Source: Armatimonadota bacterium
Lineage (GTDB): Bacteria; Armatimonadota; Zipacnadia; Zipacnadales; UBA11051
Length of the DNA stretch: 64,000 nucleotides
Assembly: GCA_013178155.1 (NCBI GenBank)
Contig: JABLXH010000008.1
Span: 1 to 64,000, forward strand
Direction: 5' to 3'
The notes under the pieces were generated by a model. It was given only the letters and a program-made list of their open reading frames with translations, did not search any database and was not told the origin of the DNA. Both the position numbers and the translations under genes were made by a program. How positions within the stretch are numbered: position 1 is the first letter of the stretch; each line of letters opens with the position of its first letter. Shown here in pieces: positions 1 through 26,100 of this stretch.

Positions 1-1946
1 CAGAATGTGTACATCGGCTTATCGAGGACCACGCTCAGGCTGCTCCAGAAGCTGCCTACGGCGAACTCCCCGAGGATGACTCCGCACATCAGCGGGATGG
101 CGGCGGCGTGGGTCCGCAGGCCCCCGTACCGCAGTACGAGGACCTTGATGACCCACGAGATCAGCATTGGCAGCCAGACATAGTCCAGGCCGAACACCAT
201 TCCCAGGGCATAGCCCGCGGGGTGGAAGGGCCAGCCCACCACCCGCATGCGCGCCGCGCCCAGAGCCAGGGCGACCAGTGCCCCTGCGCCCATGAAGGCG
301 ATGGGCAGGGGCTCCGGCCCCTTGGGCGCCTCCATCCAGTTCTGCAGTTGCCGGTAGGTCTCCATCGCAAAGCCCGTCCCGCGCGCCCCTTTGCTCCCAT
401 AGGCATCGCTCAGGAGCGCCCAGTACCCGCCCAGCAGCCCCACCAGGATGGCGGCCATCATGGCCACGCCCAAGCGCCGGTAGTCGGTGCCGGACCGCTC
501 GGCCATCTTGAAGCCCTCAAGCTGCACCGGCATCTGATGGCTGCGGACCATGCGGTTGTTGAACCACATCATGGCGAAGCTTACCAGCGTCCCGGGGCCC
601 AGGTTGCGGCTGCCCAGAAGTGACACGACCATGCGCGTGGTCGCCATGCTACCCAGTTCGTGGGTTGGCGGACCGATCTCCGCCCTCATTTTGGATACCG
701 CTGCGAACAGGGCGTAGTAGAGCACGAAGTACAGCGTCAGCGGGAGTGTCGCGCCCCCGGCCTTGACCCAGAAAGCGACCAGGTACACCAGTCCGACCCC
801 AGCCCCCAGCATCGCCCAGCGGTAGCGCATGGGTTCGCGGGAATCGTCCACGCCATCGGGCAGCCCCCAGGTCGTCTGCCACACCGACCCCAGGTGCCGC
901 CGCGCGCTCCACACTGCCAGCGCCGCGAAAGCCATCCACGCTCCCCAGGCCTGCTCCAGCAGGTACGGTGCGCCGGGGAGCTGTCCCCAGCCCGTGGCGG
1001 CGGCGATGATCTGCTGGGCTTTGCGGAAGAGGTAGAAGAACCAGCAGGAGAACGAGACATCCGTGGGCAGAAAGAAGCTCAGTGCCACCACGAAGGGGTA
1101 ATACGACGCGGGTGTCCAGCCGATGGCGTTCCAGGGCTTCCCCACGAAGTACCGCGACAGGTCGTGGAGCTTCACGTTGATCCTGGGCATCGAGGGAATC
1201 AGGAAGGCGATACCGTTGTAGATGTCCAGGCCCGCGCCCAGCAGGAAGCCAATGATGAAGGCCGGTCGCCGGTAGAGCCCCGAGGCTCCGCCGTCGCGGG
1301 TCATTTCCAGCGGCAGGTGGGTCAGCGGGTAGGTCAGCTTCTCGTGTTCGGTCCACTGTCGCCGCATGATGACGTTGAGGCACTGCATCACGAACACGAG
1401 CACCAGAATGAAGCTGCCCCACCAGGCCAGTGGCGCCAGCCACGGCCGGTAGTTGCTCGGCTCCAGGATGCTGGTGCCGCCGTCATAGTAGCCCCGCATG
1501 GCATGCTGGTCGGAGACCGTCAACCAGGCTGGGAGGTGCGGGTGGATGAGCTGCTCCCAGTGGTTCTCGGGGGTGGCGAACCAGTAAGCGTGGGGGATGG
1601 TGGGGATGAGCATCTGCAGCATGTCGTGGGCAGCCACGCTGCAGCCCAGGGAGACCATGATATAGGTGGTCAGCAACTCGCCCTGGGTCAGGGCCCAGGC
1701 GGGTCGCAGTCGCCGCAGCGCCAGGTTGGCGAGGATGACCAGAAGCAGACTGAAGACGGCGTTGGAGAAGATAGAGAGACACGTCGGGTGGCCGGAGTAG
1801 TGGACGATCTCGACCTGCACCACCCAAATGCAGTTAGGCGGGATCAGCAGCAGCCCCAGCAGCACGGAGCGCCAGGTGACGCCACGGTTCGGGCCCGGGA
1901 GTTCCCGGGCCCGTGGCTGTTTCACTAGCGCCCCACCCTCCGGCAT
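1..1946 (-). CDS. DUF6785/DUF6784-type multi-pass membrane protein (3' end cut off by window edge)
   Basis: An open frame runs from an ATG at 1946, preceded by GGCAGGAG and an in-frame TAG, to the left edge, giving 648 codons without the C-terminus. The product is very hydrophobic with many membrane helices. Landmark segments are LLLIPPNCIWVVQVEI near the first helix, TPENHWEQLIHPHLP in a loop, KMRAEIG, and a late GWPFHPAGYA. The gene at the right edge of the window has counterparts to each (TPENHWEEDIFPHLP, RLRAELG, WWPFHPVGYL), so the two are paralogues. From memory of the family, these are DUF6785/DUF6784 proteins of unknown function common in Armatimonadota and Planctomycetota. I infer a transporter, possibly for oligosaccharide breakdown products. 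It lies 68 bp downstream of the aldolase/VOC gene on the same strand and may be co-transcribed with it. Confidence 0.8.
   Translation of the reverse strand, partial: MPEGGALVKQPRARELPGPNRGVTWRSVLLGLLLIPPNCIWVVQVEIVHYSGHPTCLSIFSNAVFSLLLVILANLALRRLRPAWALTQGELLTTYIMVSLGCSVAAHDMLQMLIPTIPHAYWFATPENHWEQLIHPHLPAWLTVSDQHAMRGYYDGGTSILEPSNYRPWLAPLAWWGSFILVLVFVMQCLNVIMRRQWTEHEKLTYPLTHLPLEMTRDGGASGLYRRPAFIIGFLLGAGLDIYNGIAFLIPSMPRINVKLHDLSRYFVGKPWNAIGWTPASYYPFVVALSFFLPTDVSFSCWFFYLFRKAQQIIAAATGWGQLPGAPYLLEQAWGAWMAFAALAVWSARRHLGSVWQTTWGLPDGVDDSREPMRYRWAMLGAGVGLVYLVAFWVKAGGATLPLTLYFVLYYALFAAVSKMRAEIGPPTHELGSMATTRMVVSLLGSRNLGPGTLVSFAMMWFNNRMVRSHQMPVQLEGFKMAERSGTDYRRLGVAMMAAILVGLLGGYWALLSDAYGSKGARGTGFAMETYRQLQNWMEAPKGPEPLPIAFMGAGALVALALGAARMRVVGWPFHPAGYALGMVFGLDYVWLPMLISWVIKVLVLRYGGLRTHAAAIPLMCGVILGEFAVGSFWSSLSVVLDKPMYTF
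1890..1913. repeat. Perfect 11-bp inverted repeat in the 5' coding region of the left membrane protein
   Basis: CGGGCCCGGGA and TCCCGGGCCCG are separated by two bases. The dyad falls 33-57 nt inside the DUF6785-type gene, in the hydrophilic N-terminus before the first membrane helix. In mRNA it would form a very stable hairpin close to the start codon. Confidence 0.7.
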
Positions 1947-2014
1947 CGGCTACTCCTGCCGGTCACGGCCGCCGCTTGCCTGGTGCCCGTTGCTCATCCC
2001 CGCCGTCGCCGTCC

Positions 2015-3049
2015 CTATGAGCCCACACTCGGGTTCCACAGCAGGTGCACGCGGTGGCCGGCGGGGTCCGTGCCCTTGAGATAGGCGGCCTTCAGCACAC
2101 CGGGCTTCTCGCCAAACTCCTCGAAGTCGAAGCCCTTGGCGCGCAGGTCCGCCAGCGCCGCCTCAAAGTCGGACACCAGTACGCACACATGGGCCTTGTC
2201 ATAGAGCGCGTTCTTGGCGACTTCCAGGCGTCCCGCACCCGGGCCGGACAGGAAGATGGACGAGTTGCCGACCGCCAGCTTGAAGCCGAAGGTGTCGGCA
2301 TACCACTGGGCCAGTTCCTCGCCCTTGCCGTCCTCCGTCGGGTAGATGCCGGGGTGCTCGACGCCCAGGAAGATGGGCACGCCGCGGGCCTGCTTGACCC
2401 ACAGCAGGCAGTTCTCGACCTGGACGCGCAGCCCCTCCCAGTCCCTGTTGGCGACGATCTCCCTGGTGATGAGGCCGCTGCCCATACCCACCGCTGCGAC
2501 TCCGGCCTTGATCCAGGCGCTGATGCTCTCCTGCGTGGCGTCCACGCCGCCGGTGGGCATGATGCTGGTCCACGGGCACGGCCCCAGCATGTTCTTGACG
2601 AACCCCGGCCCACCGACTTCCTTGCCCGGGAAGACCTTGACGATCTCCACGCCCAACTCGTGGGCCTGCTGGATCTCGGTGGCGCTGCCACAGCCCGGCG
2701 AATAAGGTATCTTGCGCAGGTTGCAGGTCCTGGCCACGTCCGGGTTCAGCACCGGGCCGACGATGAAGTTGGCGCCATTGGCGATGTACAGCGCCGCCGT
2801 GGGCCCATCGCAGACCGATCCCACCCCCATGATGACCCCCGGCAGCTCAGCCTGGCAGAACTTCACCAGCTCGGCGAAGACCTGGTAGGCGAAATCGCCG
2901 CGGTTGGTAAACTCCACTACCTTTGCCCCGCCGGCCGCACACGCCCGCACAATCTCCTTCGCCACCTCCAGGTCACCGTGGTAGAACACCGGCACAACTC
3001 CGGTGTCATAGATGGCATTGAGCACCTTCATGCGACTGAACTGAGCCAT
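2015..3049 (-). CDS. KDPG/KHG aldolase-like domain fused to a glyoxalase/VOC domain
   Basis: The 344-residue product has two parts. Residues 1-215 are a class I 2-keto-3-deoxy-6-phosphogluconate/4-hydroxy-2-oxoglutarate aldolase-like TIM barrel, with VVEFTNRG at the position of the catalytic Glu and K138 in EIVKVFPG as the expected Schiff-base lysine, plus a late MPTGGV phosphate-loop motif. Residues 225-344 resemble a VOC (glyoxalase/dioxygenase) domain, with a GVEHPGIYP strand and a closing GHRVHLLW. Family knowledge predicts cleavage of a 2-keto-3-deoxy sugar acid phosphate to pyruvate and an aldehyde. The role of the VOC half is unknown. The start at 3049 was chosen because GGAGG sits seven bases upstream; a longer frame to 3205 crosses a hairpin-rich spacer. 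It could act on uronic acids released by the nearby secreted enzymes. Confidence 0.85.
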   Translation of the reverse strand: MAQFSRMKVLNAIYDTGVVPVFYHGDLEVAKEIVRACAAGGAKVVEFTNRGDFAYQVFAELVKFCQAELPGVIMGVGSVCDGPTAALYIANGANFIVGPVLNPDVARTCNLRKIPYSPGCGSATEIQQAHELGVEIVKVFPGKEVGGPGFVKNMLGPCPWTSIMPTGGVDATQESISAWIKAGVAAVGMGSGLITREIVANRDWEGLRVQVENCLLWVKQARGVPIFLGVEHPGIYPTEDGKGEELAQWYADTFGFKLAVGNSSIFLSGPGAGRLEVAKNALYDKAHVCVLVSDFEAALADLRAKGFDFEEFGEKPGVLKAAYLKGTDPAGHRVHLLWNPSVGS

Positions 3050-3077
3050 ACAAGAGCCTCCTTGGACGGCCCCAGGA

Positions 3078-3180
3078 GAAGCGCCAGGAAGGGAACCGAC
3101 CTGGCGCTTCCGTTCGCCACAACGTCCCGCCATCCCTCCCCCGGATGGGGTCAGGGGACGCCGCAGTGGCGTCCCCTGAC
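3078..3180. terminator. Cluster of three adjacent perfect stem-loops
   Basis: Three inverted repeats are packed into about 100 bp between the papain-like gene and the aldolase gene. They are GAAGCGCCAGG/CCTGGCGCTTC (3078-3110, 11-nt loop), CCATCC/GGATGG (3130-3148) and GTCAGGGGACGCC/GGCGTCCCCTGAC (3150-3180, 13-bp stem, 5-nt loop). None is followed by a run of T, so they may be factor-assisted terminators, mRNA-stabilising hairpins or a 5' leader of the aldolase gene. Confidence 0.6.
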
Positions 3181-3205
3181 GACTCCGTATCGCCCCGCGG
3201 GCCAC

Positions 3206-5329
3206 TCACTGGCCCCGAGGAACCTGGATCTGGCGCTCCAACTGGTTGCTTTGCAGGTTGCGCAGTTGCAGGTTAAGCGCGCTCTGGGCAGGGCTGGCCC
3301 AGTTGGTGGGGATGATCACGGCTCGGGTGCCCTGCTGTAGCTGCAGGTCGCGGAACAGCCCGCCTTGCTGGCCCCGTCCTGCCGGGCCAATCAGGCGCAA
3401 GTCAAACTGCAGCCCCGCAGCGCCCCGCACCTCCAGTTGCCCGCCGTCAGGAGTGGTGCCGACGACCAGGGACTGGGCGCCGAGATTGCGGAAGTTGAGG
3501 GCGCGCAGCACCCGGTCTCCGACGCCCCGGCTGCGAATGAAGCCGACTTCCGAGACCTGCAGGGTCCCCGGAGTTGGTAGTTCCGCGCGATAGCTGGGGC
3601 GTAGCAGGTCCAGCAGCCGCACCTCGCCTGCTCCCGCTGCCTGCAGCTCGAACACCATGCCATGGCTGTACAGGTTCAGTTGCTTGGCCTGCTGCCCTGC
3701 CAGCGAGAAAGTCAGGCTCTTGCCCGCAGCCTGGCGGAACACGTAGATGTCGGGGTAGTTGGCCGGCAGCCGAGGGGCCTCCGCACCGCTCGGTGGGTTG
3801 CCACTATAGGGCGGCAGGACCAGCGGCAGCACCCGCATTGAGTTGGTGATACGGGTGTTCGGATCGTTGTTGACGCTGCCATCGGGGTTGAAGAAGCGTC
3901 TCCCCTTCTCGTCGGTGATCTGGGTCGCCCGGGTGCCGGGGCTGAGCACGGCCACGACGGTCTCGGCCCCTGGGCCCCCATACTCGCTGCCTGGCAAGTG
4001 CGGGTTGGCGGGCGTGCATTCCTCATACGACATGCAGACCGCCTTGTTTGCCCCGCCATAGGAAAAGGTGTTAGAACCCCACGCCACGTGGGCCACGTTG
4101 GGGTCAGTGGAGCCCGTCTCGTCTTCTCGGTATGGATTGTTGTTGTCCCAGACGAAGATCCGCCGGTCGTCGCCGGCCACCTCCGTCTTGTAGGGAACCA
4201 TGGCGTGACCCCACGTGGGGGCCCAGATCACCAGCACCGGTCGATTGGTGAGCTGGTTCACCAGCGATGCCGCTCGGTCGAAGACCTGGCGATGTGTCTG
4301 CGCGTTGTAAAGACTGGTGTGAACATCCAGGACTTCCTGTGTGTACCACGCGCCCTGGTCCTCCTGCACCGTCTGGCGGGTCTCCACTCGCCACGGGTAG
4401 AACCAGGTGTAGGCCTGGTGGTTTGCCGGGTTGTCAAACCAGCCGTGCCAGTACGTATGCAACTCGGCGTTCCTCAGGCGCAGGCTCGAGACGCTCATGC
4501 CATAGCAGTTGCCGCCCTGGCCGGCCTTGGTGTAGGCGCTGTCAAACCAGCTCTGCGCAGCCGGGCGGTGGGTGCCGTCGGCGTACTCAACGGTACCTTG
4601 GCCGAAGTAATCTCGGTATAGCTCCCAGGGGATGGAAGTCCAGGAGAAGTTGGCAAACTGCCAGCCCCAGTAGCCACGGTAGCCACGCGGAGCCACAACT
4701 CTGTAGGTGTAGGCGCTAGTGCTCTTGTTGGTGGCCGTGTTGCGTACCACCACCTGGTGATCCACACCCCGGCTCGTCCCCGAGGGTATTCGGAACGCTA
4801 CGCTCCGGGGGAAGAACTCGCTGTACTCGACGTAGTAGCTTTCGGTCATGCTGCCGTCGAGAAGGGCCTTACAGTCGGCGCCGAACCCGACGCCGAAGAT
4901 GTACGCCCAGCCACCGGCTGGCCCCTGGTCAGGCCAGATGCTGCTGATCGCAAAGCGCAACACCAAGTCGGGCCGTACACGAGCGCTGACGATGCTCTCA
5001 CTGATCACACGGCGGTCAAGGGCCTGGGCCACCGACACAGAGGTGTGGGAAAGCAGGTCGAGCTGCAGATCCGGCGGCAGTTGCTGGAAACTGGACTCGT
5101 AGGTGCGGCGCACGTTCTCGGGCACCTTGGCCCGGTCCATGACCTGCCGGAACTCATTGAGTCGGAGCGCCTGGGAGCTCTGGATGGCGGCCAGGTCAAG
5201 GGGTCTAGCGACTGTGAGCCGTGGGTTAGGGTTTCGCTGGATCTGGGCCAGCAGAGGAGACACGACCATCAGGCAGCACAACAGGACCATGACCGAGACT
5301 GCGCGTGGAACCGGTAGGCGATGCCGCAC
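3206..5329 (-). CDS. Secreted IPT/TIG and papain-like (C39-style) cysteine peptidase-like protein
   Basis: This 707-residue protein starts with a Sec signal peptide (VMVLLCCLMVVSPLLAQ). After a helical region, residues about 125-215 look like an IPT/TIG immunoglobulin-like domain (ISSIWPDQGPAGG start). The middle carries what looks like a papain-fold triad: C275 in GGNCYGMS, H375 in WGHAMVPY and D395/N396 in FVWDNNNPY. The C-H-D spacing of about 100 and 20 residues is reasonable for C39-like peptidases. The remainder (450-707) is beta-rich and unassigned. I infer an extracellular peptidase or transglutaminase-like enzyme; the family is not recognised with certainty and activity could be lost. 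It lies upstream of the aldolase on the same strand with a hairpin cluster between them. Confidence 0.6.
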   Translation of the reverse strand: MRHRLPVPRAVSVMVLLCCLMVVSPLLAQIQRNPNPRLTVARPLDLAAIQSSQALRLNEFRQVMDRAKVPENVRRTYESSFQQLPPDLQLDLLSHTSVSVAQALDRRVISESIVSARVRPDLVLRFAISSIWPDQGPAGGWAYIFGVGFGADCKALLDGSMTESYYVEYSEFFPRSVAFRIPSGTSRGVDHQVVVRNTATNKSTSAYTYRVVAPRGYRGYWGWQFANFSWTSIPWELYRDYFGQGTVEYADGTHRPAAQSWFDSAYTKAGQGGNCYGMSVSSLRLRNAELHTYWHGWFDNPANHQAYTWFYPWRVETRQTVQEDQGAWYTQEVLDVHTSLYNAQTHRQVFDRAASLVNQLTNRPVLVIWAPTWGHAMVPYKTEVAGDDRRIFVWDNNNPYREDETGSTDPNVAHVAWGSNTFSYGGANKAVCMSYEECTPANPHLPGSEYGGPGAETVVAVLSPGTRATQITDEKGRRFFNPDGSVNNDPNTRITNSMRVLPLVLPPYSGNPPSGAEAPRLPANYPDIYVFRQAAGKSLTFSLAGQQAKQLNLYSHGMVFELQAAGAGEVRLLDLLRPSYRAELPTPGTLQVSEVGFIRSRGVGDRVLRALNFRNLGAQSLVVGTTPDGGQLEVRGAAGLQFDLRLIGPAGRGQQGGLFRDLQLQQGTRAVIIPTNWASPAQSALNLQLRNLQSNQLERQIQVPRGQ

Positions 5330-5418
5330 GATGACCCTCCTTATCCGGGGTTTGCGTTCGCGGATACCTGCTACAGGTACCCTTCGAGTCCCGCGCCCTA
5401 TCTCCTGCCCTCGGTCAT

Positions 5419-6765
5419 CTAGGAGAGGATGTCAGACCGCCGCTTCCCCTCCGGCCGCATCAGTTCCGGGGTGCGCCAGTCGCCGATGGGGTCGTAGAGG
5501 TCCTTCCGGTACTGCTCGATCTGGCGGCGCTGGGCGGCGGGTATGTCGCGAGGGAAGGGCAGTTCAGCGCTCTGGGCCAGCTCGCCCACCATGCTCGCCA
5601 CCAGGTCGGTGGTCCGGGCCAGGCGCGCCATGTTCAGCTTGTCCGGGGTATCGAAGCGGCTGTGGTGGTACCAGCGCCCGCCGGGGCAATTGCCGCGGTA
5701 TAGCCAGACCGTGGGCACGCCGACCAGGTTGAAGGGGTAGTGGTCCGAGAACGGCGTGATGTCGGGCCTCAGCTTCGCCACGAAGCGCTGCTCCTCCAGG
5801 TGCCGCCGCACGAAGGCGCGCAGCTTCGCATCACCCGTGACCCAGACCTCGTCGGTGCCCATCCAGCAGCCCACAGAATCGATGTTCACCATCAGCGCGG
5901 TGGTCTCCGCCCGGTTGGCCGGGTGGACGACATACTGCCGCGCACCCTCGGACAGGTTCTCCTCCCAGCCGAAGCTGACGAAGCGGATGGGGCGCAGGGG
6001 CTTGCTGTCACGCAACAGCCTTGCCAGCTCCAGGGTGACAACCACACCTGTCCCGTCGTCCTCGGCACCGACGTTGGTGGCCACGCAGTCATGGTGCCCG
6101 CCGATCACCAGGGGCGGCAGCTTGCGGCGGCCGGGGAGGACTGCGACCACGTTCTGGGAGTGGCTCAGGAAGTTGCGCATGTCCAGTTGTAGCCGCACGT
6201 CCCTGACGCCGTCGCGCACCAAGTCCCAGGCCCGCAGGTAGGGCACGGTGGCCGTGGGCAGGCTCAGGTGGTCTATCCACCCGGCAATGAGGCCCGAGGC
6301 GACCTTCTCGTCGGTCGGGAAGCGCTCGTCCACATACAGCAAGGCCACCAGCCCCGAGTTGCACAGCCGCTCCATGCGCTCCAGGGAGGCGTAGGCCGAG
6401 CCGAAGAGCAAGCCGATCTTGCCGGTCAGGTCGCGGCCCTCCAGGTCCCAGGGGTGGGCGGTCTCCAGGTAGACCAGCTCACCCTCCAGCATCCCCGGCG
6501 TGGAAGGCGACTGGGTGTTGGGCTGAACCGGAATGTCCACCCAGCGGCGGCCACGCCTGGCCTGCATGACGGCCTGCCGACACTCCCAGCAGACACAAGG
6601 GAACTCCTGGATCTCGGTCTCCAGGCCCAGAGCCTGGTACTGAGCGGCGATGTACTGAGCGGCCCTGGCCTCATTGGGCGAGCCGGCCAGGCGGCAGCCG
6701 ATGTCGTCACAGAGCACACGCAGGTCGGCCTCGAGACGGGTGGGATTGGCGGGCGCGAGTGACAC
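5419..6765 (-). CDS. M28-family metallo-aminopeptidase
   Basis: The 448-residue product has the M28 zinc-peptidase core: GGHHDC (first metal His), GAEDDGTG (bridging Asp), GWEEN (general base and metal Glu), NIDSVG (metal Asp) and SRFDTPDKL near the final His. An N-terminal half with IGCRLAGSPNE and a PA-like insert (residues about 110-230) precedes it, as in many M28 enzymes. The start is a GTG at 6765 because GGAGG lies nine bases upstream; the longer frame to 6996 has no good ribosome site and runs through a dyad-rich spacer. There is no obvious signal peptide from this start, so it is probably cytoplasmic and works in peptide turnover. It is divergent from the prepilin-like gene. Confidence 0.85.
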   Translation of the reverse strand: MSLAPANPTRLEADLRVLCDDIGCRLAGSPNEARAAQYIAAQYQALGLETEIQEFPCVCWECRQAVMQARRGRRWVDIPVQPNTQSPSTPGMLEGELVYLETAHPWDLEGRDLTGKIGLLFGSAYASLERMERLCNSGLVALLYVDERFPTDEKVASGLIAGWIDHLSLPTATVPYLRAWDLVRDGVRDVRLQLDMRNFLSHSQNVVAVLPGRRKLPPLVIGGHHDCVATNVGAEDDGTGVVVTLELARLLRDSKPLRPIRFVSFGWEENLSEGARQYVVHPANRAETTALMVNIDSVGCWMGTDEVWVTGDAKLRAFVRRHLEEQRFVAKLRPDITPFSDHYPFNLVGVPTVWLYRGNCPGGRWYHHSRFDTPDKLNMARLARTTDLVASMVGELAQSAELPFPRDIPAAQRRQIEQYRKDLYDPIGDWRTPELMRPEGKRRSDILS

Positions 6766-6941
6766 AGGGCAACACCTCCGTCTCCCCATTCCACGGGTGC
6801 GTCGGCAATCCTCTTTTGGGCCAGCCGCGCCTCCCGCAGCACCTGCTGACCAGGGCGTCGGGTGAACTCGGGCGCACGCCACCACCAGCGGTACCGGACC
6901 CCGTCGCCCCTTTTCCTTTCCATTTTGTATGGTTTTCTTCC

Positions 6942-6969
6942 CGCTGTCATGCGCCAGTCCCTGACAGCG
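6942..6969. promoter_or_regulatory. Perfect 8-bp inverted repeat, candidate operator
   Basis: CGCTGTCA and TGACAGCG are separated by 12 bases. The dyad lies in the divergent spacer between the M28 peptidase and the prepilin-like gene and directly abuts a second dyad at 6970. Arrangement and position suggest a protein-binding site; no regulator is identified. Confidence 0.45.
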
Positions 6970-6990
6970 AACGACTACAATGCAGTCGTT
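6970..6990. promoter_or_regulatory. Perfect 7-bp inverted repeat with a -10-like hexamer inside
   Basis: AACGACT and AGTCGTT flank a 7-base loop, and TACAAT (6976-6981) overlaps the left arm. The prepilin start follows 27 bp later. I see no matching -35 at normal distance, so the promoter part is tentative, but an operator over a -10 would fit. Confidence 0.4.
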
Positions 6991-7016
6991 TATCATAGCT
7001 GGAAGGAATGATTACC

Positions 7017-7622
7017 ATGCAGAGCCGCCGGGGGTTCACCCTCATCGAACTGCTCGTGGTCATCGCCATCATCGCGATTCTGGCCGCCATCCTGTTTCCA
7101 GTCTTCGCTCGAGCTCGCGAACAGGCCAGGCGCACCAGTTGTCTGAGCAACCTCAAGCAACTGGCCCTGGCCGCCATGATGTACGGCCAGGACTACGACG
7201 AGCTGCTGCCGGTGGGAGCCACTCAGGGCAACAGCCTGTGGAACGTGGTGCAGGGACTCTACCCGTATGTCAAAAACAGCCAGGTCTTCTACTGCCCCTC
7301 CATCAGCATCCTCGCTGCCTACGACCCACTGCTGTCGCCTACCGCCGACAACTGGGCGCTAGGGAACATCGGTTACTATTACTGGTCGAGTTACGCCATC
7401 CACGCCCATACGGGTCCGTTTGCCAGTCAGCACCCTCCCAGGCAGCTCACGCTTAGTTATAGCCCTGACCTATGGATGTGGTCCGACGTCTTCGGTCAGT
7501 TCTACTGGTCGCGAGGAGCACCCTTCGCTCATGGCATGGGTAGGTGGAGCTTCACGAACGTGGCATTCATGGACGGCCACTGCAAGGCCATTAACGGCAA
7601 GCCGTCCGATGTCTTCAAGTGA
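7017..7622 (+). CDS. Prepilin-like secreted protein with type IV pilin N-terminus and FMDGH tail
   Basis: The 201-residue protein begins [15 protein letters not shown], a class III prepilin signal: basic leader, cleavage before the F, glutamate at mature position 5 and a long hydrophobic helix. The following segment [19 protein letters not shown] and the C-terminal HGMGRW...FMDGH element match the large DUF1559/H-X9-DG group of pseudopilin-like proteins that are highly multiplied in Planctomycetota and Armatimonadota. It would be processed by a PilD-type peptidase and anchored or secreted by a type II/IV-pilus-like machine. AAGGA lies nine bases before the ATG at 7017; the ATG at 7008 abuts it. 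This is the best taxonomic clue in the window. Confidence 0.9.
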
Positions 7623-22978: not shown

Positions 22979-23140
22979 GTGCAGAGATACCAGTGCAATA
23001 TCTGCCCATACATCTACGACCCTGCGGAGGGCGATCCCGACAACGGCGTTCCGCCGGGCACAGCCTTCGAGGACCTGCCTGACGACTGGGTCTGCCCCCT
23101 CTGTCAGGTGTCGAAGGACGAGTTCACGGCCATTGACTAA
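22979..23140 (+). CDS. Rubredoxin
   Basis: A 53-residue ORF with a GTG start, GGAGG eight bases upstream, reads [19 protein letters not shown], then [20 protein letters not shown]. The two pairs CNIC and CPLC, about 33 residues apart, are the Fe(SCys)4 site, and Y, P, F and W residues of the rubredoxin core are all in place. It carries single electrons at low potential, commonly in oxygen or peroxide detoxification of anaerobes and microaerophiles. Its TAA overlaps the stop of the next, convergent gene by four bases. No rubredoxin partner (rubrerythrin, oxidase) is nearby. The gene is easily missed because it is so short. Confidence 0.95.
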
Positions 23141-26100
23141 CCTCCCGGCGCACTGCCGGCAGCACCGTATACCCGCAGTTCGCCGAGGCGACATTCGCCG
23201 GGCCGCGCCATCTCACTGAAGTCCTCGGCGCGTCCACCTGGTCCGCCCTTCCCCACGCGCACCGCGACCGGGCTGTCTGGATAGAGGGCGCGCGGGTAGC
23301 TGTGCATGGGGTCCCAGTACTCGCAGTCCACCGAGCTCTCGACCACCACCGCGTCGGCCTCCAGGCGGATACGCAGCCAGTAGGTTTCGTCCGGCGCCGT
23401 CCGTCCGGGGAACACGAAGTCTGTGCCATCATCCACGCCGAAGGTCCCCATGGAGCGCACGTTGATCCGCACCACCCGATCATCCGGCCAAAGCAGCGTC
23501 AGCCCCGGCCCCCACGTCGCCCCAGCGTCGGTTCCCGGCTCCACCCGGCATTGCACCAGTGTCGTCCCCGGCGGCAGCGGGCGTTCAGCAAAGGCGTAGC
23601 AGTTGTCCAGGGCGGAGATGACGATGGCGCTGTCGCGCAACGTCAGAGCCGCCTGTCCCCGTGCCGACAGGGAAACGGTCCAGGGGTCGCCGAGAGCCTC
23701 ACGGTCGAAGTCGTCCTGCAGCAGCAGTTGCCGTCCGGCGTAGGCGTCTACCTGGGGTGGTACCTCGTGGACCTCCTCGTCCAGATAGAGCAGCCAGCCC
23801 CGTCCCGGTGGGACCGGGATGGTGTCCCCTGGCCGGAAGAGCCGCGCGGGCTGAAACCCGTCCACCGCCGGAGCGTAGAACCCGGCCTTGGCCTGGTCCA
23901 GGCCCAGCCGGTCCCAGTCCACGGTCAGCCGGCAGGAGGCCCTTGCGGGCGCCCAACTGGCCAGCGCCACCAGGCTTCGCCCCGGTTTGCGGTACACGGT
24001 AGCGAGGATGCTCTCATGGTCCGTGCGGACCGGGCAGTTCTTCTCCCAGTAGCCGAGCATTTCGGCATCCTGGATGCCGAAGTAATCCCAGAGACGCCAT
24101 ATGGCCCGAGGGTCACCCTGCCAGTGCAGGCGGTTGGTCATGCCATAGAGCATGCCCCGCCAGGGATTGCCGCCGTTTTGCAGCATCTCGCCGTACAGGC
24201 CGAACGGAATGCCCGAGACCTCCACCAGCCAGTAGTCGGGCGGCAAGTCATAGTCATACATCTCCCCGAACCACAGGCTGTCAAGGTAGGGGAAGTGCTC
24301 CATGTAGAGGTTCGCGGGGCTGACGCGGCGGTCCATGTAGGCGTAGTCATTGCCGGAATGGAAGTCTATCAGGCATCCGGGCCGCGAGCGGTCAAGCACC
24401 TTGCGGACACGCTTCATGATCTCGCGGTCGTAGCCGATGCCATCCAGATACAGGCCGTCAACCCCCACCTCGCGCACGAGCCAGGCCAGTCCTTCGAGGT
24501 AGTAGTTGTGCCAGCGGGAGAGCCCAACCGTGGCGATGGCAGCGTCCACTTCGCCGTTGGGGTAGGGCTGATGCCAGGCCGCGGCGTAGTCGCTCACCAG
24601 GTGCTCCTGCAGCCAGGAGTCGCCCCCTCCGCCTCCGCCGGTGAAGACCTCGTGCCCCAGGCTACGCAGCGGGAAAAGCTCGCGAGTGAAGTTGCTTAGC
24701 TCACGGACCGTGTAGTAGATCTTGACCTTGACATTCCTCGCATGGGCAGCGGCGGTATACTGGCGCATCAGGTCCGTGGTCAGGAACGGGTAGTTGATGT
24801 AGGGATTGTGAGCATTGCCCTGATGGATGTTGACAATGTTGGCGCCATTGGCCACGACCTCGGCAACATCGGGAACCGTGTTGTACTCGTGGATGTAGCG
24901 CTGCTGCCAGTGGGCGGGATCCAGCGGCTTCACCGGGGTGATCAGCAGCCCGAAGCGCAGTTCCAAGCGCTCGCCAGCGGCCATCGCCCGCGGGCCCGTG
25001 AAGGCGCGGAAGAGCACAGTGTCCGCTCCCAACTCGGAGACCGTGGCGCCGCCCTTGCCGTCATTGCCCCAGTTGCGCACCGCACCCGGCTCGGCAGCGC
25101 CCAGATGCCACTCGTCGAGAGGCCCTTTCAGTTTGCACTGCAGCCCGGCGTGAACGTCACCCAGCCAGACGGCGTTGGTGGGCTGTCTGCCACTCCAGTC
25201 CCACTTCCACTCGGCCGGCCGGAGGCCCCCCATCTTGCCGAGACCCATCATATAGGTCGCCACTTCCCGCCGGATCGGCACGTCCAGCCGTATATCCTGC
25301 AGTTCGGTAGCTCGGTCCGCCTCCAGGACCACTCTGTAGTTCAGATAGCCATCACTTTCCATCTTCGCCTGGACGGTCTGTCGGAGCCCACGGGCGCGTC
25401 GCGTCGTCTCCCACACCACGGCCCCCGCGGCGCGGTGGGTGACCCGCGCCGGGGCTCCTTCCCACTGCACCGGGCCTTCGGGGGCCTCGACGCTCAACTC
25501 CAGGGGCGCGGCGAGGATCTCCTGCTCGCCGCTGCGGACACTGTCCATGAAGCCGGCGACATTCCAAGTGACCTGTCGCCCCAGGCATCGCACGGTTCTT
25601 CCCTCCACCTCCAGCGGCGTGTAGGGCGCAGTTGGCTCCTCATCGAGACCGATGGTTGAGTTCAGCCACTTCAGGCGCGCCAGGCGGTCCAGGTCTCCTA
25701 CCCCCCCATCGGGCAATACCGTGGAACGCACGGCCAGGGCGATACCTACGGACCGGGGCGGGGCGTTGTCAGCGCTGACCGTTACCGCGCCCCGGTAGGT
25801 GCCGGTGGCGGAGTCGGCCGGGACCTGCAGCCCACACCATAGGGCCTGCACCTTGCCCTGAGGCACCGTAAGCGCCTTGTGCACCGGCCGCCCCAGCCAG
25901 TCCGTGCCTTCCAGGTTGAGGCAGGTGAGGCCCGCGGCCGGGATGACATTGGCGCCGGAAGTCAGGTCGGTGAACGTCACGCGCAGGTTGGTCAGGTCAC
26001 GATCCACGGCGTAGACGCCGACCTGGAAGACGAAGTACTCATTGCGCTGGGCGGCAGCCTCAAGAGCACCGCCGGGGCCGCGCTCAATCCACCGCAGCGG

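Follow-up and report, generated by a model that had tools for sequence, protein, structure and literature searches.

Introduction

Few enzymes have been studied as thoroughly as those of the papain type. An oxyanion glutamine six residues before the catalytic cysteine (position -6) is common in the papain-like superfamily, although not universal. Three further points come from passages of a 2023 survey (PMC10318531). These give a cysteine at the N-terminus of the core helix as a feature of the superfamily, allow an exchange of aspartate for asparagine at the third triad position among papain-like families, and describe most of the survey's cluster III (deamidases and transglutaminases) as lacking the -6 glutamine. 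The studied enzyme closest in layout to the protein described below is T-Mac (TDE0362) of Treponema denticola. In T-Mac, a signal peptide and Ig-like domains precede a papain-fold thiol protease that cleaves complement factors (PMC11833123). For uncultured bacteria of the class Zipacnadia, extracellular peptidases have been detected by similarity to MEROPS; the relevant passages of that genome paper name S8A and S8B, together with C40 for the paper's other class (PMC10290634).

We analysed a window of 64,000 nucleotides, namely positions 1 to 64,000 of contig JABLXH010000008.1 from a member of the Zipacnadia (assembly GCA_013178155.1). The product of one of its genes is predicted to be a papain-fold thiol hydrolase that is exported, with a peptidase as the likeliest kind, and we consider this assignment probable. 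The protein belongs to a new family inside a known superfamily, rather than to a new kind of enzyme, and this family is absent from the Pfam and NCBIfam copies searched. It may already be named in UniProt, InterPro or MEROPS. In the open-licence literature, searched by titles and the beginnings of abstracts for LGFP, C39, Armatimonadetes and IPT cysteine protease, no paper on the family was found.

The gene and its neighbourhood

The family gene is the open reading frame 5329-3206 of the minus strand, which begins with GTG at 5329, has a stop codon ending at 3206 and encodes 707 amino acids. This start is well supported by the predicted Shine-Dalgarno sequence AAGGAGGG (Table 1). Frame 1 of the plus strand is interrupted by stops across the same interval. 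A sequence-only reading had reported, with no strand given, the motifs GGNCYGMS, WGHAMVPY and VWDNNNPY with C275, H375 and D395/N396 as a candidate triad; all three motifs are present and the numbering agrees.

The genome carries a single copy of the gene. NCBIfam, PHROGs and PADLOC gave no match to the 707-residue protein, and sequence searches of the PDB returned chance-level matches only (E 0.2 or more). Viral contigs and phage records gave no match to the family, and neither did plasmid records queried with two of the distant relatives. An Rfam search of the window and a scan for promoters and terminators found nothing.

An M28-type peptidase gene (5419-6996, minus strand, Pfam E 3.5e-27) lies on the same strand and ends 89 nt upstream of the family gene start, while a KDPG/KHG aldolase fused to a glyoxalase-like domain (2015-3205, minus strand) is encoded directly downstream. 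Nearby are genes for a prepilin-like protein with an N-methylation motif and DUF1559 (7008-7622, plus strand) and for a DUF6785/DUF6784 protein (3-1949, minus strand), the latter with distant counterparts in L061 and L062. When the open reading frames of the window's first 24 kb were sought in the neighbourhoods of nine relatives, only the family gene recurred in all nine; ORF 3-1949 had distant counterparts in two of them and ORF 23140-24000 in one. An operon-based assignment of function was rejected because no neighbouring gene, the M28 gene included, is conserved among these neighbourhoods. No finding points to a substrate.

Table 1. Coordinates of the family gene's features in the window.
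Feature	Position	Strand	Evidence
Shine-Dalgarno sequence AAGGAGGG	5335..5342	-	5 nt upstream of GTG; sequence; strong
GTG start and predicted signal peptide, residues 1-29	5243..5329	-	helix 7-31 in model; hydropathy maximum 3.11
N-terminal helical region, residues 44-112	4994..5200	-	model; L84, P85 and Q89 conserved 20/20
IPT/TIG-like Ig-fold domain, residues 123-212	4694..4963	-	sub-threshold Pfam TIG; structure Z 11.2
Predicted papain-fold catalytic domain, residues 213-500	3830..4693	-	model pLDDT 89.3, pTM 0.88; structural matches; alignment A3
C275 codon, putative nucleophile	4505..4507	-	N-terminus of helix 275-286
H375 codon	4205..4207	-	start of strand 374-385
D395 codon	4145..4147	-	just past strand 388-394; every copy has D or N
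C-terminal all-beta region, residues 525-707	3209..3757	-	model; common to some LGFP-type relatives

Domain organisation outside the catalytic domain

The whole protein was modelled with AlphaFold from 23 homologues (pLDDT 84.8, pTM 0.78). In the model, a signal helix (7-31) is followed by a helical region at residues 46-103, by Ig-like strands at 127-212 and, starting near residue 213, by a mixed domain; the remainder up to the C-terminus is beta structure. The hydrophobic N-terminal region closes with an Ala/Gln end, and the N-termini of close homologues in which the start is present look alike, as measured by a hydropathy proxy rather than by SignalP. The signal peptide proposed by the sequence-only reading is thus borne out by the model helix and by this proxy. 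The helical region that follows is possibly a prosegment.

The Ig-like domain, which the same reading had called IPT-like, is also borne out as a fold. Over residues 128-209, Pfam TIG (PF01833) scores 14.5 bits (E 0.036), below its curated cut-off of 20.9 bits, and the modelled domain superposes on the IPT/TIG domain of EBF3 (3n50) with Z 11.2 over 83 residues at 2.3 Å. The IPT/TIG-like domains of CGTases, galactose oxidase and SGBP-B resemble residues ~118-216 with Z of 9.2-11.2; those domains sit on carbohydrate enzymes or binding proteins, whereas the present one sits on a papain-fold domain.

The C-terminal beta region matches L083, L088, L093, L094 (on the contig of L051) and L049 at E <= 1e-5, while shuffled proteins gave nothing below E 2.4. 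The match to L098 has E 0.007, and other distant copies match weakly or not at all. Some LGFP-type relatives carry this region together with the catalytic domain, so the working enzyme probably includes it. The N-terminal helical region, by comparison, matches no distant relative, which suggests that the unit of catalytic domain and C-terminal region probably predates the TIG architecture.

The predicted catalytic domain and its putative triad

The catalytic domain was also folded alone with AlphaFold, from the 39 sequences of alignment A3. In this model, as in that of the whole protein, C275 occupies the N-terminus of the core helix 275-286, H375 lies on the second strand and D395 follows just after the third, as in clan CA. 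Whether the three residues lie far apart in a predicted structure, which would speak against a triad, was assessed at the level of topology, where the modelled elements that carry them have the papain layout.

In alignment A1, built from 23 homologues, H375, D395, N396 and N397 are invariant (23/23), as is C275 in the 22 rows that cover it. Among the 648 columns with at least 18 rows, 40 are fully conserved among the rows present, including the triad, N396, N397, L84, P85 and Q89. Over 47 distinct copies, many of which served to build the profile, the cysteine is present in 46 of 46 covering rows and every one of the 47 has the histidine. Asp occupies position 395 in 44 copies and Asn in the other three; at position 397, 45 copies have Asn and two have Val. 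The sole copy without the cysteine, L016, begins at a contig end. As 16 distant loci were found through the pattern GGNC[YF]GM, their cysteine motif is conserved by construction; the histidine and the Asp/Asn lie outside that pattern. The sequence-only reading had left the third residue as D395 or N396. The alignments favour D395, which is D or N in all 39 rows of A3, and N396 was rejected because its position is Pro or Cys in 16 of the 39.

The triad is invariant down to ~20% identity, over 47 copies, and this argues against a protein that has the papain fold but no catalytic activity and serves in structure or binding. Such a protein would be compatible with the modest fold match described below and with a family of no known activity, and we hold it to be most improbable.

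The glutamine at -6 is missing. Position 269 is A, V, I, M, L or N in 38 of 39 rows of A3 and Lys in L095; a glutamine is present there in L086, which lies outside A3. In comparison sets from genomes of the same clade the -6 glutamine occurs in 10 of 13 C39 and 12 of 12 C1 sequences. Its absence here, as in most of the survey's cluster III, keeps alive a rival reading as a transglutaminase or other thiol transferase that would cross-link or modify surface proteins. An Ig-like domain ahead of a papain core, with a C-terminal beta region behind it, also recalls transglutaminase 2, the first row of a whole-protein Foldseek search. That row has a TM of 0.12-0.14, an rmsd of 23 Å and a probability of 0.30, and deserves little weight. 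Moreover, Transglut_core (PF01841) gives no Pfam match, and no transglutaminase appears among the 50 listed matches of the domain model, a list from which several other papain families are missing too. We regard a transferase as quite improbable, and a hydrolase as the better reading. The whole-protein Foldseek rows as a group (transglutaminase 2, C0362) were rejected as structural homologues, with TM values of 0.12-0.21 and rmsd of ~20 Å or more.

Structural matches

We searched the PDB with the domain model using Foldseek, which gave no match at E <= 0.001 (best E 0.047); a viral fold library likewise held nothing at E <= 0.001. Fifty listed entries drawn from Foldseek's first 1000 ranks were re-aligned with VIA, and all rows have Z of 6.9 or less, within the range (Z below 8) that the tool calls common. 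The top row is the C39 domain of PCAT1 (Z 6.9, 121 residues, 3.6 Å), followed by staphopain (Z 6.7, 125 residues, 3.5 Å), the type VI effector domain BtaeB (Z 6.6, 147 residues, 4.6 Å) and IdeS (Z 6.2, 161 residues, 4.0 Å). T-Mac (Z 5.0), cathepsins (~4 to 4.8), ZUP1 and AvrPphB are also listed. By title and general knowledge, we take 48 of the 50 entries to be papain-type cysteine hydrolases; the titles of BtaeB and CtaG are silent on this point. Single rows are weak, and it is the uniformly papain-type list, at modest Z, that suggests the fold of the modelled domain: its matches to solved clan CA members are consistent among themselves, with Z no higher than 6.9 and with Foldseek alone non-significant.

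Some weaker matches have amidase-type folds (Tse1, Z 4.2; Gsp amidase, Z 4.4). These fit a second rival, in which the protein would be an amidase or endopeptidase of the cell envelope, with peptidoglycan or some other wall polymer as its substrate in place of proteins. LGFP repeats in relatives point the same way, as does the endolysin family PHROG 2998, which matches the LGFP repeat region in L049 and L092. The window protein itself has TIG and not LGFP, the better structural matches are peptidases, and no wall-enzyme Pfam family matches; we consider a wall enzyme unlikely. A peptidase remains our preferred reading, as a preference among peptidase, amidase and cross-linker, which sequence does not separate.

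Comparison with known families

Using hhalign, we compared the family with sets of C39 (13 of 21 matches), C39_2 (7 of 29) and C1 (12 of 15) sequences from same-clade genomes, chosen for length and open frame. The score for Peptidase_C39_2 was 35.5, at a pairwise E of 5.4e-5 and a probability of 67%, over 48 columns that pair its His and Asp with H375 and D395; C39 scored 18.0 and C1 17.8. The best scores over 60 column shuffles of the query were 15.8, 14.5 and 17.9 for C39_2, C39 and C1, respectively, and 0 of 60 reached the C39_2 score. This match is significant over the His/Asp half only; the fourth alternative alignment, which puts both cysteines together, is non-significant. The median spacing from Cys to His is 100 residues in the family (93-144), 98 in C39_2 (91-114), 79 in C39 and 136 in C1, and that from His to Asp in the family is 20.

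The known family that comes nearest to the present one is Peptidase_C39_2, in the profile comparison as in the spacing of the triad. The two differ in the cysteine motif, which is GGNC[YF]GM here, and in the larger domain and extra modules of the present family. The Pfam model of Peptidase_C39_2 (PF13529) does not match the 707-residue protein up to E 10, and it does not appear when 23 members are searched to E 1. The profile match and the spacing suggest that the domain works like C39_2 and is probably related to it. By the Pfam criterion, the domain falls outside that family.

Peptidase_C39 proper (PF03412) has no Pfam match, and its profile score of 18.0 against a best shuffle of 14.5 is not convincing. 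Although the C39 domain of PCAT1 is the top structural match, the family departs from PCAT1-type enzymes in its Cys-His spacing (100 versus 79), in lacking the -6 glutamine and in standing apart from an ABC transporter, with no ABC domain in the 707 residues and no membrane bundle in the model. Of the C39/papain fold that the sequence-only reading had proposed, the papain type is therefore supported by the model, the structural matches and the Peptidase_C39_2 profile, and membership of C39 itself is not. Peptidase_C1 (PF00112) has no Pfam match either, and its profile score lies within the shuffles.

T-Mac shares the order of domains, with Ig-like domains that are Big rather than TIG. Its Cys-His spacing is 149 (C412, H561) and that of IdeS 168 (C94, H262), against 100 in the family (PMC11833123). 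No PDB sequence match to IdeS or T-Mac (C66 type) was obtained up to E 10. Unlike T-Mac, the window protein showed nothing here that suggests a host target. Staphopain, of C47 type, matches in structure but not in sequence, and its matched chain of 173 residues would be too short to carry the family's accessory domains.

Distribution and module architectures

With the whole protein as query, 22 of 101 genomes gave a match; a profile picked up 33 of 291 genomes from the phylum. Judged by the matched ranges, eight of the 33 match outside the catalytic domain, in or beside TIG (G086, G115, G121, G127, G129, G168, G253, G274); G152 and G184 are LGFP-type, and G005 is a C-terminal fragment. The catalytic-domain profile A3 found 27 of 291 genomes at E <= 1e-4. 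The patchy occurrence within its own order fits an accessory rather than a housekeeping enzyme.

A scan of genome contigs with the single protein gave nothing, and one with an alignment gave 32 loci. Close homologues occur in candidate division WS1, Candidatus Zipacnadia and other Armatimonadetes MAGs. L052-L056 were rejected as relatives because their similarity to A1 falls in the TIG region or immediately ahead of it and leaves out the catalytic domain. Sixteen of the 32 loci (L083-L098) are distant; by record title they belong to Acidobacteria, Actinobacteria, Chloroflexi, Firmicutes, Bacteroidota and, in one case, Armatimonadetes, two being without a phylum label. The catalytic module is spread across about six bacterial phyla.

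Pfam and NCBIfam were run over the full length of eight of these 16 loci. LGFP occurs in five of the eight (L083, L085, L087, L090, L098), Laminin_G_3 in two (L090, L098) and BspA-type LRR_5 with Big_2 in two (L084, L095); L089 has a Listeria-Bacteroides repeat and L087 a NosD-type beta helix. LGFP is also carried by L049 and L051, and Laminin_G_3 by L057. Over the catalytic domain itself, neither database gave a family in the eight scanned loci or in L049, L051 and L057.

A second, more distant group consists of Armatimonadota ORFs of 780-1100 aa that place this catalytic core in a different context (L057, L123, L124, L127 and similar ORFs in G004, G011, G013, G019 and G031).

Several genomes hold paralogues. 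Contig G017:C323 carries two tandem family copies (L014, L023), and a third lies on another contig of that genome. On G001:C109, the paralogue match L024 contains TAG; on G023:C130, a paralogue is split near its C-terminal part (L019, L047), with TGA in the second piece. The latter two are either decaying copies or assembly errors.

The LGFP/LamG-type copies L083, L088, L090-L094 and L096-L098 have no hydrophobic N-terminal segment, unlike the TIG-type and LRR-type copies; L093 starts at the locus end and the start of L083 is doubtful. Among ten genomes of such relatives, in which no signal peptide is visible, three (those of L083, L092 and L094; loci L193-L195) contain Pvc16_N, a contractile-injection-system family, as against 0 of 14 control genomes, which is a thin lead.

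Proposed function

The enzyme would be exported by the Sec route and, after removal of the signal peptide, act outside the cytoplasmic membrane. C275, at the tip of the core helix, would be activated by H375, itself oriented by D395, and would attack a carbonyl group; the fold and the invariant triad suggest that the reaction passes through an acyl-enzyme intermediate. As the canonical -6 glutamine is missing, the oxyanion is probably held by the backbone amide of C275 and another group, which may be the near-invariant N274. The TIG domain may serve as a spacer or as a binding module. For the N-terminal helical region, a role as prosegment is possible.

On a wider and more speculative view, which is unlikely to be right, the family would be an uncatalogued pan-bacterial group of papain-fold peptidases used as an exchangeable warhead behind TIG, LGFP, LamG, BspA-type LRR or beta-helix modules, with the C-terminal beta region as partner in part of the family. 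The copies of Zipacnadia and gut Firmicutes would be exported through Sec; the LGFP/LamG forms, in which no signal peptide is visible, would be delivered differently, perhaps by a contractile injection system.

The interest of the family rests on its breadth and its exchangeable modules rather than on new chemistry. It combines a fixed signature, GGNC[YF]GM followed by GH or PH and then [DN]xN, with a range of about six phyla, yet is unrecognised by the Pfam and NCBIfam copies searched, and the MEROPS-similarity survey of the class Zipacnadia, to judge from the passages cited, may have overlooked it (PMC10290634). If active, the enzyme would add a secreted peptidase to uncultured bacteria that are thought to feed on complex organic matter, and would offer a testable case of one catalytic module shifted among surface-binding modules.
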